From the IMG/VR virus record IMGVR_UViG_3300046474_000470, positions 20,888-84,887 of that record: a DNA stretch of 64,000 nucleotides, one strand, 5' to 3'. Below, one piece after another: positions 14,962-49,542 of this stretch. Each line of letters opens with the position of its first letter. The stretch's first letter is position 1. Origin of the DNA: a virus. The notes under the pieces are model-generated. The model ran no database searches. It was not told where the DNA came from and saw only the letters and a program-made list of their open reading frames with translations. The position numbers were made by a program, and so were the translations under genes.

Positions 14962-16404
14962 CTACAGGCAAAGTAAATCTTTGATGCCCTGCTTCGAGCC
15001 GGCTGCCCGGTTGACCAGCTCGTCGTTGTTTTGCAGGCTCTTGAGCAGCTTTTCCTGGATCGTGCCGCGCGCGATCAGGAGCCTGTTGTTGGGCGGGTAG
15101 CGCTGGCCTTTCCGGTCGATCCGGCCGGTCGACTGGATGAACGGGATGGTCGTGGTCGGGATCTGGATGAACGCCGCCTCCCAGCACATGTACTGCGGGT
15201 TCAGGCCGGCGCCGGCGCTGCCCGGCTGCGCCGTCAGGCACACCGTGTCCGGATCCTCCATGAACTGCTTGATCGACTTCTTCGAATCGACCTCGGAGAA
15301 CGCCATCACGCCGCGCTTGCCAATTTTCGCAAGTCGGGCATCCATGTGTTCGCCGATCAGCCGGGATACGCTGCGGTGCGTGGTCCAGAGGATCAGCTTG
15401 CTGGCCGGCCGCGCCACGCCGTCGATCAGCGTGGTGCCGCCCAGGTCGATCTCGTCGGCGATCTCGTCGACCAGGTCGAACACCGCGGAGCGTTTCGTCG
15501 GGTCGCCGGCGAAGTAGCCGAAGTCCAGTACGATCTGCTGCGCGGCGTGATATAGCCTCGTCGCCGTGGTGGCGTCGATCTTGCCGCCGTCGTCCAGCAG
15601 CAGCAGCTGCTCCTCCATCAGGCGCTTGTACAGCGCCATGTGCTCCTTCGACAGGTCGTAGTAGATCGGGATGACGCGGCCCTTCGGCAGCGCCGAATGC
15701 ACCTCCTCCTTCGTGCGGTGGATGCGCCGCAGGTTCAAGTTCGCCTGCAGCAGGTCGAGGTTGTGCCACTCGGTCGGCTGCTTGAAGATATCGCGCTCCT
15801 TGACGTGGATGTTCTCGAACTGGGTATAGGTCGAGTAGACGTCCGGCGAATTGAGCTTGATGTAGGCGTAGTGGTCGCCCACCTTGCTGGCGATCGTGCC
15901 CGACATCAGCAGCAGGTCGCGCGACATCGAGAAGCTGCGTACGTGCTTGAACAGCACGCCGCGGCCCTTCAGGTTCTGGCATTCGTCGACCACGGTGAAC
16001 ACGTTGGCGTGTGCCATCTCCTTCGACAGCCGCTGGATGTCATTGTTGAAAAGCTGGTAGCTGGTCACCAGCCACTGCGCGCCGTCCAGATCCAGCTGGG
16101 CGCGCACTTTCGGCGAGCCGGTGTAGTCGACGACGCGGCCGGCGCCCGGAATGCTCTCCAGCCAGGCCACCCACTGGGCGACCAGGATGGGCGGCACCAG
16201 GATCACGTTGATGTCGTTCTGCAGCATCAGGGCGACGGCCGTGGCGATCACGGTCTTGCCGTAGCCGACAGGAAGGTCGGCCAGCGCGCGGCGCCAAACT
16301 GCGGCGCGCACGATGTCTTCCTTCTGCAGCTGCTCCAGCACCATCACGCCGCCCATCGGGTGGGGGAACGGGTAGGTCTCGATGACCTGTTCGAGCGTCA
16401 GCAT
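14962..16404 (-). CDS. SNF2-type superfamily 2 helicase
   Basis: 480 aa. Motif I LPVGYGKT (44-51), motif II VVDECQ (138-143), motif III LMSGT, and motif VI IQSTGRIDRKGQ near residue 420, which is typical of the SNF2/Rad54-like group and of phage DEAD/DEAH-like helicases such as the T4 UvsW type. It probably translocates on duplex DNA during replication restart or recombination. DECQ instead of DEAH is common in SNF2 phage members. It overlaps the preceding gene by 7 bp. Confidence 0.9.
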   Translation of the reverse strand: MLTLEQVIETYPFPHPMGGVMVLEQLQKEDIVRAAVWRRALADLPVGYGKTVIATAVALMLQNDINVILVPPILVAQWVAWLESIPGAGRVVDYTGSPKVRAQLDLDGAQWLVTSYQLFNNDIQRLSKEMAHANVFTVVDECQNLKGRGVLFKHVRSFSMSRDLLLMSGTIASKVGDHYAYIKLNSPDVYSTYTQFENIHVKERDIFKQPTEWHNLDLLQANLNLRRIHRTKEEVHSALPKGRVIPIYYDLSKEHMALYKRLMEEQLLLLDDGGKIDATTATRLYHAAQQIVLDFGYFAGDPTKRSAVFDLVDEIADEIDLGGTTLIDGVARPASKLILWTTHRSVSRLIGEHMDARLAKIGKRGVMAFSEVDSKKSIKQFMEDPDTVCLTAQPGSAGAGLNPQYMCWEAAFIQIPTTTIPFIQSTGRIDRKGQRYPPNNRLLIARGTIQEKLLKSLQNNDELVNRAAGSKQGIKDLLCL

Positions 16405-43986: not shown

Positions 43987-44273
43987 AGGTGGCCGTCCAG
44001 TCGAGCGCGCACAGGCTCTTCGAGGCCGGCCACGAAGTCGGAGGCTTCGGACAGGGCGCGCAGGACGGGCGCAAGGTTGCGGTGCTGCCATGCGTCGAGC
44101 TCGACCACAGGCACGCCGCCGGCGGTGAAGTAGCCGTCACGGCTCACACCGAAGGCGTGGCGCTTGAGGTTGAAGGGGCGCAGGTGGCGCCGGATCTCGT
44201 AGGCGGCCAGGCAGGCGGCCTTGTGATAGGCGACGTCGAGGATGGCTTCGATTTCCAGGGTTTGCATGTTCAT
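43983..44273 (-). CDS. Hypothetical protein (96 aa)
   Basis: Helical N-terminus with His/Cys (ILDVAYHKAACLAAYEIRRH), Gly-rich centre, acidic helical end. MNM start; a second ATG at 44267 is possible. Confidence 0.7.
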   Translation of the reverse strand: MNMQTLEIEAILDVAYHKAACLAAYEIRRHLRPFNLKRHAFGVSRDGYFTAGGVPVVELDAWQHRNLAPVLRALSEASDFVAGLEEPVRARLDGHL

Positions 44274-44276
44274 GGC

Positions 44277-44453
44277 TCAGTCCCTGATGGTGGCATGTTC
44301 GGCCTGCAGGCGGGCAAGTCGCTCCTGCAGCATGGCGACGTTGGCGTTGGCGCGCTCTTGGGCGAGCTTGGCGAGGAAGAGGTCGTGTTCGGTTTCGCGG
44401 ATGGTCTGGCCACGCATCTCGGCGAGGCTGGGCGGCTGGAAGAAGGTTTTCAT
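44277..44453 (-). CDS. First gene of the small-gene array: coiled-coil protein (58 aa)
   Basis: ATG at 44453 (MKTFFQPPSLAEMRGQTIRE). The rest is a charged helix (LFLAKLAQERANANVAMLQE). It is the promoter-proximal gene of the 21-kb leftward array. Confidence 0.72.
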   Translation of the reverse strand: MKTFFQPPSLAEMRGQTIRETEHDLFLAKLAQERANANVAMLQERLARLQAEHATIRD

Positions 44454-44526
44454 GTAATTTTGAGAGGAAAGTGTGAGTTTTGATGGTTGGGCGAAAAACG
44501 ACTGATAAGTAGCCAGTTTCTTCGTG

Positions 44527-44538
44527 TTCTGTACAGAA
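44527..44538. promoter_or_regulatory. Palindrome TTCTGTACAGAA, candidate operator
   Basis: Perfect 12-bp palindrome about 75 bp upstream of the first array gene, with related TGTACA/GTACAG half-sites within 100 bp. The arrangement fits a dimeric repressor or activator site. No binding protein can be assigned. Confidence 0.5.
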
Positions 44539-44903
44539 GTTTGTTGTTGTCTAAAAGAAATGAACACTTTTACGCGAAGTTACGGAAAAGTTGTAGGCTG
44601 TACAACATTTGCAACAAAATGACGTACAGTCACTCGTGTATAAGAGCACAGGTAACCTATTTTCGACCTTGTAACTTTGAGATGAAATTGTGAATTACCG
44701 AGGCTAAACTGTGTTCGTGAGGGCCGTTCTGGAAATGAAAAGAGCCCCCCCTAAACATCAAAAAATCGAGGTCGGCCAGATAAGAACACAAAACAGGAAA
44801 AAACAAAAAACCTAAATCGCCCAATCGTTCTACAGCTATACCCAAAATGGTGATCACAGTATAGATAATTACTTTTTAGGGTGTGCTCTCTATAGGGCGG
44901 CTT

Positions 44904-44932
44904 GGGCAGGCGTCGATTTTGTGTGGTATTAT
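44904..44932 (+). promoter_or_regulatory. Extended -10 promoter for the 245-aa gene
   Basis: TGG directly before TATTAT (44927-44932), which is a 5/6 match. The -35 position at 17-nt spacing is poor (GGGCAG), which an extended -10 can compensate. It lies about 30 bp before the ATG at 44963. Confidence 0.55.
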
Positions 44933-44962
44933 CCAACTTCCCAACCCACTTGCGAGACCATC

Positions 44963-45700
44963 ATGGAAAACCTGAATCGAATCCTGAAACAAGAAGACGT
45001 GCCTCAGCATTTCGTCCTGGAAGGCTCACGCCTGTACCGGAAATACAGCACGGGCGCCGTCACCCAGCTCAAGAGCATGGACGGCAACACGGTCGTCACC
45101 TTGTTCGATGGCCACCGCTTGCGCGGCGTCGATATTGCGTGGTGCCTGCTGCACGGAAACTGGCCAGCCTTTCCGATCGTCCAGCTGCACGAAGATCCGC
45201 ATGACTTCTCGGAGGGCAATCTCTACCCTGCCCGCCTCAAGCGCCTGCGCTACCGTGAAACGCAGAAGGGTCTGCTGTTCTATCACCCGCTCAGCCTGCT
45301 CGGGCACATCAGCGCGAAACGCTGCCGCGAACACTGGGAGCATCTGGCCCATGACTACTATATGAAGGACTACACCTATGTCCTGCGGGCTGAGGCGTAC
45401 GATCGCGAGATGCGGCTGACCACCCTGCAGAGTCTGCCGCCAAAGCCTGTGCCCCCAGAACACGCCCAATACGCCAAGCGCCCGGCACGCCCTAAAGCGG
45501 TCCCGGGCATGGAATGGCACTGGTGGCAGGGCGCGTGGATCAGCGTGCCGGTCGCCGTGCACGTCTCGGACGATTACCGCGTGCGCATCAAGGCCGCGCA
45601 GGCCGGCGCCACGTCGTTCCGCTTCGATCCCGAGGCGCAGCGCACGCGCGCCTACCTGCCTGACGGCTCCGAGCTGGTTCATGCTGCCACCTCGGCCTGA
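44963..45700 (+). CDS. Lone rightward protein, possible degenerate HNH fold (245 aa)
   Basis: ATG at 44963. The segment GHRLRGVDIAWCLLHGNWPA followed by FPIVQLHEDPHDFSEGNLYP has the layout of phage HNH endonucleases (R-L-x-W-x3-HG-x-WP ... D-H-x-N-G-D-x2-DN-x2-ENL), but the catalytic DH-N residues are replaced. A Trp-rich block (GMEWHWWQGAWISVP) lies in the C-terminal half. It may be a DNA-binding derivative rather than a nuclease. It is the only rightward gene between the tail cassette and the packaging genes. Confidence 0.72.
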   Translation: MENLNRILKQEDVPQHFVLEGSRLYRKYSTGAVTQLKSMDGNTVVTLFDGHRLRGVDIAWCLLHGNWPAFPIVQLHEDPHDFSEGNLYPARLKRLRYRETQKGLLFYHPLSLLGHISAKRCREHWEHLAHDYYMKDYTYVLRAEAYDREMRLTTLQSLPPKPVPPEHAQYAKRPARPKAVPGMEWHWWQGAWISVPVAVHVSDDYRVRIKAAQAGATSFRFDPEAQRTRAYLPDGSELVHAATSA

Positions 45701-46223: not shown

Positions 46224-46463
46224 CTAGCAGACCAGATCAATGGGCACGAGGCGCGACTCGTACTGCATGCGGTCGATGCGCACGGAGCAGCCCCAGCCAT
46301 CAAGGTGCGAAGTCCACGCTTCGTCGTCCGGCTCGATCTTTGCTTCGGCTGCCTGCCGCCGGTATTGCAGCTGGGTTAGATTGGCGCCATGCTCGTCCAG
46401 GATGACGGTCGGCGCGCTGCCGTTGTCAGGGTGGGCGGTGATGGTAGCTCGGTAGATTTTCAT
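46224..46463 (-). CDS. Small protein, paralogue of the 46482-46733 product (79 aa)
   Basis: Shares an alignable order with its upstream neighbour: an E-[H/Y]GA-[N/D]L-x2-L-x3-R block (EHGANLTQLQYRRQAAEAKI), a middle acidic/Trp block, and the last residues LVC. Tandem duplication with strong divergence. Function unknown. Confidence 0.7.
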   Translation of the reverse strand: MKIYRATITAHPDNGSAPTVILDEHGANLTQLQYRRQAAEAKIEPDDEAWTSHLDGWGCSVRIDRMQYESRLVPIDLVC

Positions 46464-46481
46464 GTTGACGTCCTTTCAGAG

Positions 46482-46733
46482 TTAGCAAACTAGCTTGATT
46501 TTGCGGATGTAGGCCGTGTAATCGAGGCTGGTGCCGTCCGGATCGGTGATCCGGACTTCAGAGCTTCCATCCGGGAAGCTCTTCCAGTCCTGCTCACCGG
46601 CAATCGCTGCCTGCCGGACATGCAGGCGGCGCGTGAGTTCGGCCAGATCGGCGCCGTACTCGCGCAGCACGTCGTTCAAGGCACCCTCGAATTCGGTGGA
46701 GGTTTCGATTGCGGATTCGTAGATAGTCGTCAT
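46482..46733 (-). CDS. Small protein, paralogue of the 46224-46463 product (83 aa)
   Basis: ATG at 46733 in an ATGA junction. Contains LREYGADLAELTRRLHVRQA and ends IRKIKLVC, parallel to the downstream neighbour. Function unknown. Confidence 0.7.
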   Translation of the reverse strand: MTTIYESAIETSTEFEGALNDVLREYGADLAELTRRLHVRQAAIAGEQDWKSFPDGSSEVRITDPDGTSLDYTAYIRKIKLVC

Positions 46734-47029
46734 GCTGCACTCCATTTGAAGGTGAGGGATGTTTTCGGCGTCGACAGGTCTGGGCGATTCTTTTCGCCGC
46801 GCGCTTTTGGCGGCATCGGGATATTCAGCGCGCCTGCCTCGATTACGTGGCCGCGCTTTTCTTTTCGGCGCTTCGGAACCTGCACAATCTCAGGATCGAA
46901 CAGTTTCGATCGGGTCTCAATGACAGGTTCTGTAACCAGGTTTTTATGCGGTTTCGGCAGCGCTTTTGCATATTGCGCTATCGTCCCACGTAGGGCCGTT
47001 TTAATCGGCAACCTAATTATCTTTCTCAT
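46730..47029 (-). CDS. Small very basic protein (99 aa)
   Basis: ATG at 47029 preceded by AGGAG at 8 nt; the longer in-frame start at 47068 lacks this. Rich in Lys/Arg/Pro (MRKIIRLPIKTALRG, VPKRRKEKRGH). Probably nucleic-acid binding or disordered. Base composition is less GC-rich than the array. Confidence 0.68.
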   Translation of the reverse strand: MRKIIRLPIKTALRGTIAQYAKALPKPHKNLVTEPVIETRSKLFDPEIVQVPKRRKEKRGHVIEAGALNIPMPPKARGEKNRPDLSTPKTSLTFKWSAA

Positions 47030-47759
47030 CGTTTTTTCTCCTAACAATATCGCTGTCCGATTCGGCATCGCGTAACAACCCGATGGCGAACCGGACAGAG
47101 TATTGCCTTTACCGTATTCACGCCCGGTAAATGGCGCTATCGCTTGCCAAAGCGATTCCGCTCATCGCGGCTAGGCTTGCTAAACCTAGATTGGTTTCAC
47201 TGCCTACGCAATCATTCGGCCTTATCCTGTCCCGGCTTATCTCACTCAGATTATCAGGCCACCATTTCCGGCTGATACAAGAGCTATTTTCGCTTTCCAT
47301 GTCAGCTACTAGGCCGGTATCTATCCGGCATTCACTGGCATGCGCACAGATTGCCCACCGTACAGCGCCTGTTGACGCTTGAACCTGTCCAACTACATAC
47401 AGCGGGTTTTCGTTTGATTGCGCCGCTCTAGGAAACGTCCCAGAGCGTGCGTTTTATGCTGACGGCCCGATTCACTAGTACCGCGTTAGGTATAGGATGA
47501 AACGCGACAGGCGACACGGCTGAAAGGACAGCGTGAGCATGCGCGCAACAGATTCACAGTCGCGGATTTAGGTGGGCTCTATTGTTAAAGAATGGTCCCG
47601 ATGCTAGCGGCTGGACGGTGGCGAATGACGCCAGCGATTCCGCTAGGGTACGGCGCGCGGTGGTCCTATCAGCGTTCTGTGATAGGCCGCACGATATGAA
47701 GCTATCTATAAGGGCGCACGCGCCCTTATAGATAGCACCATAAAGGTGCTATGCAGGGT
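47030..47759. other. Hairpin-rich non-coding region (730 bp)
   Basis: No convincing gene. Inverted repeats are dense: ATCGCTT/AAGCGAT (47139-47156), CTAGG/CCTAG (47171-47189), ATCAGGCC/GGCTGAT (47253-47276), GCCGG/CCGGC (47313-47329), CTAGCGG/CCGCTAG (47604-47646) enclosing TGGCG/CGCCA (47619-47633), CCTATCA/TGATAGG (47665-47686), a 36-bp palindrome (47701-47736) and AGCACC/GGTGCT (47734-47750). It lies downstream of the 247-aa gene and upstream of the basic-protein gene, in the leftward direction. It may encode structured RNAs, or be an origin or termination zone. Confidence 0.6.
47701..47736. terminator. 36-bp near-perfect palindrome, possible terminator
   Basis: GCTATCTATAAGGGCGC, 2 nt, then its exact reverse complement: a 17-bp stem. 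It sits 24 bp after the stop of the leftward 247-aa gene, with a second small hairpin between. The U-tract is poor, so factor-assisted termination, RNA 3'-end protection or a protein-binding or origin site are also possible. Confidence 0.5.
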
Positions 47760-48503
47760 TTAGGCCGGAACCGGTTCCGCTTTGGAGTCAGCCGCCACTT
47801 TCGCCAGCAACAGCGCGGTTTCACGCGTCTTGGCGGCTTCGATAATCATGGTTTCCAATTCCGCCGGGAGCATGCCCGATTTGAGCATGTCAGCCACGGT
47901 GCGCGCCATGATATCGGGCGCAGTGGCGGCTTCGACGCGCGCCGCCACTTCCGAAGTGACAGCGGCGCGCGCTTCCCGTTCCGCTTCCTTGGCGGCTTTG
48001 GCAGCATCCGCCAGCTTGGCGGCTTTGGCGGCTTCACGGGCGGCTTTGGCGGCTTCCTCCTCTTCCGCCGTGCGCGCCGGGGATGCCATCAAGAGCGTAA
48101 AATTGCCCGTGAACGCGTCAGCATAGTCCGACGCCAGCGGCGCAAGGATGGCGTCGCGTTCCGCTTGCGCTTTCGGCAAGTCTTTCAGCATCTCCGGCGC
48201 AGGGAATGCCGCCAGCGTCGCCAGCACGGCGGCGTAGACACGATGGAAGCGCTTGGCGGCCGCGTTCAGAGTCTTTGCGCCAACGGCATCCTTGCATGCC
48301 TTGTTGGCGTCAGCCGTGTCCGCACCGTACATTTGCGCGTCATTGGACAGTTTGATAAACGCGGTTTTGTTGCCTGCCAGCATGATCGAATAGGCGGCGC
48401 TGTAGACGGTGCAAGAGATCAGATCGAATTGCGCGGCTTCGTCGCCAGCGACGGCGCGGAACAGATCGGACATGGCGATATTGCGGGATTGAGTAGCTTT
48501 CAT
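47760..48503 (-). CDS. Hypothetical protein in its own transcription unit (247 aa)
   Basis: Helical N-terminal domain (LFRAVAGDEAAQFDLISCTV, AAAKRFHRVYAAVLATLAAF), then an Ala/Lys/Glu coiled-coil region (about 150-190, EEEEAAKAAREAAKAAKLAD) and a helical C-terminus. It is flanked by non-coding control regions on both sides, which suggests independent and possibly strong expression. No family recognised. Confidence 0.78.
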   Translation of the reverse strand: MKATQSRNIAMSDLFRAVAGDEAAQFDLISCTVYSAAYSIMLAGNKTAFIKLSNDAQMYGADTADANKACKDAVGAKTLNAAAKRFHRVYAAVLATLAAFPAPEMLKDLPKAQAERDAILAPLASDYADAFTGNFTLLMASPARTAEEEEAAKAAREAAKAAKLADAAKAAKEAEREARAAVTSEVAARVEAATAPDIMARTVADMLKSGMLPAELETMIIEAAKTRETALLLAKVAADSKAEPVPA

Positions 48504-48857
48504 TTGTAAGACTCCTGAGAATGGGTGACTGCGATTAGATAAGGTTCGGTGCGCGGCGGCATCTTCGCCACCACCACCACTACACTACAAAAACACTACA
48601 ACTAAGCACTCATTATGCGGGAAAACTGTGTTGTTGTCCCATTGTATTTTTGTATCAAGCTGCGCAGGTGGATAGCTTTTCCCTATGCTGGCCCGGCTGG
48701 CGCCCTCGCGCAGGTGAGGCTATCGAGACCTGGCTATTGATAGTTTTTAGCTATATCTGGGACGGTAACTGTGGCGAAAATACCACTTGACAAACCGGGA
48801 ATCACTAAAACCGGTCAGTGAATTGTGAATTAATTACGTCATAAACTGTGTCATTAG

Positions 48858-48886
48858 TTGACAACTCACTCGGATTTGCCTAAATA
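48858..48886 (+). promoter_or_regulatory. Near-consensus rightward promoter
   Basis: TTGACA, 17-nt spacer, TAAATA. The -10 lies inside the inverted repeat TGCCTA-AATAA-TAGGCA (48877-48893), so a repressor bound there would block it. It would transcribe the packaging genes with a leader of about 360 nt. Confidence 0.7.
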
Positions 48887-48893
48887 ATAGGCA
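48877..48893. promoter_or_regulatory. Operator-like palindrome over the -10 box
   Basis: TGCCTA and TAGGCA arms separated by AATAA. Perfect 6-bp symmetry centred on the -10 of the promoter at 48858. The HTH product of the next gene (49255) is a candidate ligand, by position only. Confidence 0.5.
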
Positions 48894-49008
48894 GATTTGT
48901 GTCGCGATTTAACACATTGCTTTTAAGCAATGCCGCTAGGACGCGTTTAACGGCCCTATGCGCGGCCTGGACGGCGCGCGGGTGCATGTGCGCGCCGATT
49001 GTGTCGCC

Positions 49009-49036
49009 GCTCTGAGGGGCTCTGAGGGGCTCTGAG
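49009..49036. repeat. Tandem 10-bp repeat, 2.8 copies
   Basis: GCTCTGAGGG twice, then GCTCTGAG, with no interruption. It lies 220 bp before the HTH gene. Direct repeats in this position could be terminase-binding sites. Confidence 0.7.
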
Positions 49037-49219
49037 ACGGGGGTACTTTCCTGACAGCAAGCAGGTGCCCGCGCCCTCCTACCTGCCCAAAAATTTCTCC
49101 CAAATTTTTAAACTTTTGCGTAGCTTTTCGTCAACTATTACCGAAATTCCGAAATTTCATGCCATTTCGTTGACTTTTTCAGAAATTTTTCGGATTTTCC
49201 GAAATTTTCCGTCACTTTC

Positions 49220-49248
49220 TAGGCAAAAACCTTTCCTCGTGGCATACT
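49220..49248 (+). promoter_or_regulatory. Extended -10 promoter directly at the 49255 start
   Basis: TAGGCA, 17-nt spacer, CATACT, with TGG before the -10. Only 6 nt separate the -10 from the ATG, so transcription would begin at or next to the start codon. No Shine-Dalgarno precedes the ATG. Confidence 0.6.
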
Positions 49249-49254
49249 TATTGC

Positions 49255-49542
49255 ATGCTACGCGACGACCTCAAACCCTACATTGACGCCCTCAAGCGCC
49301 GGGAAATCACCGGCCGCGAGGTCGCGCGCCTGCTCGGCACCCATGAAAGCTACATTTCCCGGGTCCTGGCCAGGATGAACATCACCCGCGATCCCCCGGC
49401 CAAGCCGCTGACCGACAAGATCATCAACCAGGCGCGCGCCGAGCACCGCCTGCTGTGCGCCCAAACGATGGAGCCGAAGGCCGCGGCCAAAGCCGCCAAC
49501 TGCAGCCTGCGAACCATCTACCGCTTGCGAGGCAAGACCTGA
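49255..49542 (+). CDS. Helix-turn-helix protein, regulator or terminase DNA-recognition factor (95 aa)
   Basis: Contains REITGREVARLLGTHESYIS, a good helix-turn-helix, and a second helical pair at the end (AKAAANCSLRTIYRLRG) that resembles a resolvase/terminase-small type HTH. Two DNA-binding helices in 95 residues are unusual. TGATG overlap with the next gene. It may recognise the packaging site or regulate late genes. Confidence 0.72.
   Translation: MLRDDLKPYIDALKRREITGREVARLLGTHESYISRVLARMNITRDPPAKPLTDKIINQARAEHRLLCAQTMEPKAAAKAANCSLRTIYRLRGKT

Follow-up and report, generated by a model that had tools for sequence, protein, structure and literature searches.

Introduction

Only a small number of large ornate RNAs are known, and what those carried by phages do is unknown. 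As described in PMC12286853, GOLLD, ROOL and OLE are large, elaborate noncoding RNAs with covarying folds; GOLLD and ROOL have been found in phages and prophages, and GOLLD, often encoded near tRNA islands, is reported to have a conserved 3' region and a more variable remainder. Another kind of long untranslated RNA carries boxA, to which NusB-S10 binds in the leaders and spacers of rRNA and in the lambdoid nut sites; in the accounts of PMC6614801 and PMC5725501, boxA opposes Rho and, on rRNA, also aids long-range folding. The protective role is debated, since later work showed that rRNA by itself resists Rho (PMC5725501). A boxA ahead of CRISPR arrays is likewise described as helping to transcribe a long noncoding RNA (PMC7862264, citing Stringer et al.).

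We analyzed a stretch of viral DNA (the window: 64,000 nucleotides, bases 20888–84887 of an 84,887-base IMG/VR virus record) in which a first-pass annotation had pointed out a dense series of hairpins in a 730-bp non-coding region. On the minus strand, the region has a fold that is conserved, covaries and includes a pseudoknot; it also has a boxA-like motif at a fixed place on the transcribed strand, and its position in the relatives is syntenic. The existence of an RNA is well supported; its function we infer, and we put at about one in two (roughly 0.5) the probability that it belongs to a new family of large (~500–800 nt) ornate phage RNAs, forming the second element of a leftward operon and transcribed, as rRNA is, with the aid of Nus factors.

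Like GOLLD, ROOL and OLE, the RNA is large, elaborate and covarying; it shares a phage setting with the first two and, with GOLLD as reported, the combination of a conserved 3' region and a more variable remainder (PMC12286853). It resembles these RNAs, and we have filed it as a new family in their style, outside GOLLD, ROOL and OLE themselves: unlike them, it carries a boxA-like motif and has no Rfam covariance-model match (in the window, none reached the gathering threshold, and at E values up to 10 there were only weak matches to miRNA precursors, of which the palindrome described below gave the best). Whereas GOLLD often lies near tRNA islands, the 64-kb window has 0 tRNA genes. With the rRNA-operon boxA leaders, as portrayed in PMC6614801 and PMC5725501, it shares a boxA within a long untranslated folded RNA; unlike them, it lies among phage genes, has ~170 nt of structured RNA before boxA and no rRNA after it, and neither boxC nor (without a formal search) boxB was identified here. 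Three Burkholderiales have the same 11-letter core in their rrn boxA. As in the lambdoid nut sites (PMC6614801), a phage operon has a signal with boxA close to its beginning; as with the boxA before CRISPR arrays (PMC7862264), boxA is proposed to carry polymerase through a long noncoding RNA, but the RNA here is unrelated and has no repeats. The literature that we searched held no such RNA; it excluded bioRxiv and most subscription papers, and a description outside that scope is possible. The covariance models and alignments described below are starting material for an Rfam-type family.

Genomic Context

The region occupies exactly the interval between two leftward (minus-strand) genes, at the coordinates given by the first-pass annotation (47030–47759, read from 47759 to 47030). 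The 247-aa gene (p247; 47760–48503, minus) ends with its stop codon at 47760–47762, and the next leftward gene, of 99 aa (46730–47029, minus), begins with an ATG at 47027–47029 that is preceded by AGGAG at 47038–47042. ORFs of at least 40 aa occur in the gap on both strands, with start offsets that differ between relatives (seven loci).

p247 is the first gene of a leftward operon, probably an early one, that continues for 47 kb behind the RNA and contains the replication genes; leftward genes from 48503 on include (by PHROGs) DNA ligase, DNA polymerase, helicase, primase and nucleotide enzymes, and rightward genes from 49255 on include an HTH protein, the large terminase and the portal. The p247 protein is predicted to be all-helical (pLDDT 78.9), and its predicted structure had no match in the PDB at 1e-3. 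The first leftward genes of the relatives, which precede the RNA there as well, form one alignable family with it (n = 17; identity to the window's protein 18–71%).

Promoter-like sites are scarcer in 46400–49400 than in shuffles, and the sole one, at 48640–48612 (minus) upstream of the first gene, is weak (9/12). Since this is the only promoter-like site found, we infer that the RNA region is co-transcribed with p247. The earlier suggestion of a 3' UTR of that gene had the position right: the RNA does follow it.

Fold and Anatomy

On the minus strand, the region folds with a minimum free energy (MFE) of −295.4 kcal/mol (z −7.4), and on the plus strand with one of −286.8 kcal/mol (z −6.2); for each strand, none of 20 shuffles folded as well. 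Of 87 minus-strand scan windows of 730 nt, none lies further below its own shuffles in MFE than this region (−50.5 kcal/mol; mean −10.5, sd 11.6 kcal/mol over all 87), in keeping with the first-pass remark that it has far more structure than its flanks, although by z-score alone the scan window at 16370 is more extreme (−7.9 vs −6.5 for 47030–47759, whose −7.4 above was obtained with another 20 shuffles). In the relatives, MFE did not tell the strands apart. A permissive setting listed 59 inverted pairs in the region, a list that proves little by itself because most of the pairs are long-range and possibly due to chance.

The series of hairpins, the 36-bp palindrome and the CTAGCGG/CCGCTAG structure noted earlier are all present. 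What had been proposed as a set of structured phage RNAs holds as to structured RNA but not as to a set: since long-range helices close the centre, the region looks like one large three-domain minus-strand RNA and not like a string of independent hairpins.

Read 5' to 3', the RNA opens directly behind the p247 stop codon with two adjoining hairpins. The first (47732–47752, AUAGCACC / GGUGCUAU; double changes in 4/5 pairs of aligned helix 1) has a 3' arm that competes with the foot of the second, which is the palindrome itself (47701–47736), contained in the longest inverted repeat, with a perfect 17-bp stem around a 2-nt centre (47701–47717 / 47720–47736) and double changes in 12 of its 16 aligned pairs. 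Stem P3 (47654–47693) then surrounds hairpin P4 (47685–47666; double changes in 4/6 pairs, 100% of cells paired) with the conserved loop ACANAACGNU. It is followed by a hairpin domain of weaker helices (5 and 6) that contains CTAGCGG/CCGCTAG (approximate limits 47598–47653) and by the boxA-like motif TTCTTTAACAAT, which occurs once in the window (minus strand, 47592–47581). The centre (47196–47574) is a multibranch domain that includes a long-range helix, 47423–47415 with 47214–47206.

The 3' domain begins with a hairpin with a UAGMA loop (47171–47189, from the 3' alignment), followed by two hairpins with invariant loops, CCGC-GAUGA-GCGG (47158–47170; double changes in 3/4 pairs and 100% of cells paired in 10 sequences) and, again from the 3' alignment, AUCGCU-UUGGCA-AGCGAU (47139–47156). 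Next to these is an H-type pseudoknot (47108–47137; S1 47137–47133/47124–47120, S2 47131–47125/47114–47108), present in 12/12 sequences examined with first-stem strings chosen by hand; its second stem varies, being UUUACCG/CGGUAAA in the window, CUUGCAUAU/AUAUGCAGG in L007 and CCCUCCCC/GGGGAGGG in L015.

A terminal long hairpin closed by CAAUA/UAUUG (47045–47105; helices 6 to 8 of the 3' alignment) stops just ahead of the ribosome-binding site of the next gene, and this adjacency would suit a leader riboregulator of the 99-aa gene. We consider such a role very unlikely, as the 3' domain is retained in four relatives (L006, L008, L010 and L015) in which the immediate next ORF is a different one.

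Covariation and the RNA Strand

In three alignments of terminase-found relatives, compensatory double changes were seen in 89/182 predicted pairs. Both sides changed in 25/44 pairs of the 5' domain (8 sequences), where 94.7% of cells are paired vs 26–50% with partners slid by 1–3 columns; the corresponding values are 43/93 pairs and 94.3% vs 31–42% for the centre (6 sequences, with L003, L008, L010 and L015 left out) and 21/45 pairs and 92.8% vs 36–43% for the 3' domain (10 sequences). The slid controls flatter the structures, because these were derived from the same alignments as were counted; in a shuffle control, 0/500 reached the observed values on any of five measures in any of the three domains. 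L008 was truncated at its 3' end in a separate fold of the whole region, from which no count was taken. Covariation and conservation in relatives, on which the first-pass annotation had let its idea depend, were both found and favor a structured RNA.

The strand counts and the out-of-sample model matches are less circular checks. When RNAalifold predicted the structure of each strand separately, G-U outnumbered A-C by 131 to 32 on the minus strand vs 67 to 56 on the plus strand, and its energies were lower on the minus strand in all three alignments; the covariation points to the minus strand as the RNA strand. This bears on the proposal that the region works as DNA (an origin, a packaging site or a terminator), to which the palindrome, a nearby GC-skew turn and the terminase 3 kb away might lend themselves and to which we give next to no credence, given the strand-specific tolerance of G-U. 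The origin suggested in the first-pass annotation is not supported, since G-U pairs are favored on one strand and the skew turn, at 48–49 kb, coincides with the divergent gene orientation; nor is a transcription stop zone, since a scan of 46400–49400 found no minus-strand terminator-like site (a GC-rich stem, then a T-run).

The model of the 3' domain finds L016, which was not in the model, with 55 bits (E 8.5e-14) and L007, also outside it, with 15.9 bits (E 0.02), the domain of the latter being incomplete at the contig end. The 5' model finds L017 with 49.4 bits and L011/L012 with 33.5, none of them in the model; its matches in L007, L161 and L021 are weak but in place (24 to 21 bits, E 0.03–0.15). 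Those in L016, L017 and L011/L012 all lie directly behind the first leftward gene. The 5' model also matches the palindrome's opposite strand at low scores, as it must with a palindrome. The 3' model had no match in L011, L012, L017, L020, L021, L161, L162 and L164, nor in terminase relatives at 25–33% identity (L022–L030), which were covered by the 3'-model search and, for L025, L027 and L028, also by ORF and motif listings and the 5'-model search; the 5' model had none in L010, L014, L015, L016, L020, L162 and L164.

Distribution Among Relatives

Relatives were reached through the large terminase (28 loci, and six more from the terminase alignment); searches of viral contigs with p247 and with the 99-aa protein, and of INPHARED with p247, found none. 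By blastn, the gap DNA is similar in seven loci (L003, L004, L005, L006, L008, L009, L019) and in short pieces in three more (L010, L014, L015). In another eight (L011, L012, L016, L017, L021, L161, L162, L164) the DNA similarity is lost, yet an ORF-poor stretch of ~500–1000 nt follows the first leftward gene; the ORF-poor stretches of L007 and L161 run to the contig ends. L020 is the exception, with only ~150 nt behind the first gene; a ACATAACGCT motif, possibly a remnant, is kept there close behind that gene (L020:6600–6660).

The centre is missing in L008 and different in L003 and L015, which share with L161 and L162 a second type of central domain with ATGAACGATGANATCGG-like and AGATAACGC-like motifs in common; this may be a modular swap. 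With other central motifs in these four loci, the RNA appears modular, and parts of it are dispensable since L020 is without the long region and L008 without the centre. A pattern made for the second central type hit at least 120 stretches in viral contigs and was dropped as too unspecific. A similar GGGC...CACGTCTGGAG-like leader was observed ahead of the next gene in L016, L017, L012 and L020, loci that are without the window's 3' end.

A DNA pattern for the GAUGA and UUGGCA hairpins found, in viral contigs, only contigs already among the relatives and five unrelated ones; in GTDB genome contigs it found 113 stretches, none with a convincing model match (best 14.3 bits vs 55 for L016). Among INPHARED phages, blastn of the region gave no match at 1e-5 and, at E 10, only chance-level pieces covering 15–19% of the query. 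Across IMG/VR contigs, INPHARED phages and GTDB genome contigs, the RNA family was seen only in the first.

In an alternative reading, the RNA does its main job in trans, resembling GOLLD and ROOL as an RNA or as an RNP in which the 247-aa protein may take part, and boxA serves only its transcription. Size, a three-domain fold, the pseudoknot, the invariant GAUGA and UUGGCA loops, the near-invariant ACANAACGNU and an association with the upstream gene and no fixed downstream gene all speak for such a role, which we regard as possible but distinctly short of probable: the processing and stability that it calls for are hypothetical, no partner is known, there is no Rfam relation, and p247 is not an obvious RNA binder, being acidic in 15/17 homologues.

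The boxA-Like Motif and Transcription

Our preferred reading, in which an ornate RNA is made with Nus factors, draws on the boxA-like motif. With at most one mismatch to TCTTTAACAAT, it is found in 11 of 19 gaps vs 0.26% of Markov shuffles. With at most one mismatch to GYTCTTTAANA, it is found in 14/19 gaps (opposite strand, 0/19; shuffles, 2.0%); this is the consensus given for gamma-proteobacteria in PMC5725501, and 0 of the 19 gaps match it perfectly. In the 14 gaps the motif always lies 127–189 nt past the upstream stop codon, and L005 has a second site further on; of the other five, L008 has 2 mismatches, L007 and L162 have 3, and L015 and L161 have 4. The 19 gaps include near copies (L011, L012) and close relatives (L006, L019), and leave out L014 (a near copy of L015), L020 (no long gap) and five loci with too little or no upstream sequence (L013, L018, L159, L160, L163); gap lengths, set by hand from ORF listings, have an approximate far end, and the gap end of L010 is a few bases off the stop codon. 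A single match is not rare in itself (2 consensus matches in 64 kb vs 1.27 expected), and the weight of boxA comes from its fixed place across relatives. It is one among several conserved blocks, and it lies not at the start of the RNA but ~170 nt, or a quarter of the way, into it.

The 11-nt core TCTTTAACAAT occurs four times in seven bacterial genomes (picked as beta- and gamma-proteobacteria), in Paraburkholderia, Caballeronia and Lautropia, the last with two copies 104 bases apart. All four occurrences are 170–280 bases before 23S rRNA, and a reversed-pattern control occurs twice in the same seven genomes. In these three Burkholderiales genomes, the core marks rRNA operons.

We propose that the RNA would be transcribed leftward directly behind the operon's first gene, and that boxA, at the end of the 5' domain, would load host NusB-S10, along with NusA, NusG and SuhB, onto the RNA polymerase in the way known from rRNA. 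The loaded complex would keep Rho from terminating the long untranslated stretch and would help the long-range helices to form during synthesis, and polymerase would probably be carried on, by antitermination, into the 47-kb operon. Against the proposal count the place of boxA inside the RNA and the size of the fold, ~700 nt being well beyond what antitermination requires. A boxA within a long untranslated, long-range-paired RNA at the operon head fits such a putative Rho-opposing or folding use. The family also hints that phages may turn the apparatus that transcribes rRNA to making one of their own RNAs. Because this RNA, unlike other ornate RNAs, carries a recognizable host-factor signal, its role is directly testable.

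A location just after the opening gene of a long operon, the boxA on the transcribed strand and the lack of a detectable terminator would also be expected of a purely cis-acting antitermination site for the leftward operon, comparable to nut or to the put sites of HK022 (a further signal near a phage operon start), with the rest of the RNA as an elaborate scaffold. We hold this, too, to be possible but well short of probable. Nut and put sites are only a small fraction of the length of this RNA, most of the conservation is outside boxA, and no N-like protein was recognized among the window proteins scanned (part of the ORFs).

Returning to the Nus-aided ornate RNA, we lean towards its having a function of its own beyond a cis signal, because so much of the fold outside boxA is conserved, some of its loops are invariant, and the RNA is not tied to any particular gene behind it. 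A bolder and rather improbable version is that it is a stable phage RNA or RNP that mimics rRNA, made early on the host Nus complex and acting in trans, for example by diverting NusB-S10 or other factors of rRNA transcription or ribosome assembly from host rRNA synthesis. If true, an rRNA-mimicking phage RNA with a built-in boxA and of such size and fold would be a class of its own.

Other Features of the Locus

Three further features were observed near the RNA. An AT-richer island at 44001–45000 (52.5% GC in a 1-kb bin vs ~64% around it) has little convincing coding sequence and is placed at the end of short leftward genes. At 44921–45700 (plus strand), a rightward 259-aa gene with a weak match to an HNH endonuclease (PHROG 99, E 0.036) lies inside the leftward operon, and genes resembling it seem to occupy the same place in several relatives. 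Finally, strongly conserved blocks ahead of the rightward operon (49010–49260, plus strand; aligned with L003, L004, L007, L008 and L009) end in TGGCATACTTATTGCATG, which fits a sigma-54-like GG-N10-GC element; alternatively, this stretch, upstream of the HTH gene start, may be coding (WHTYCM).
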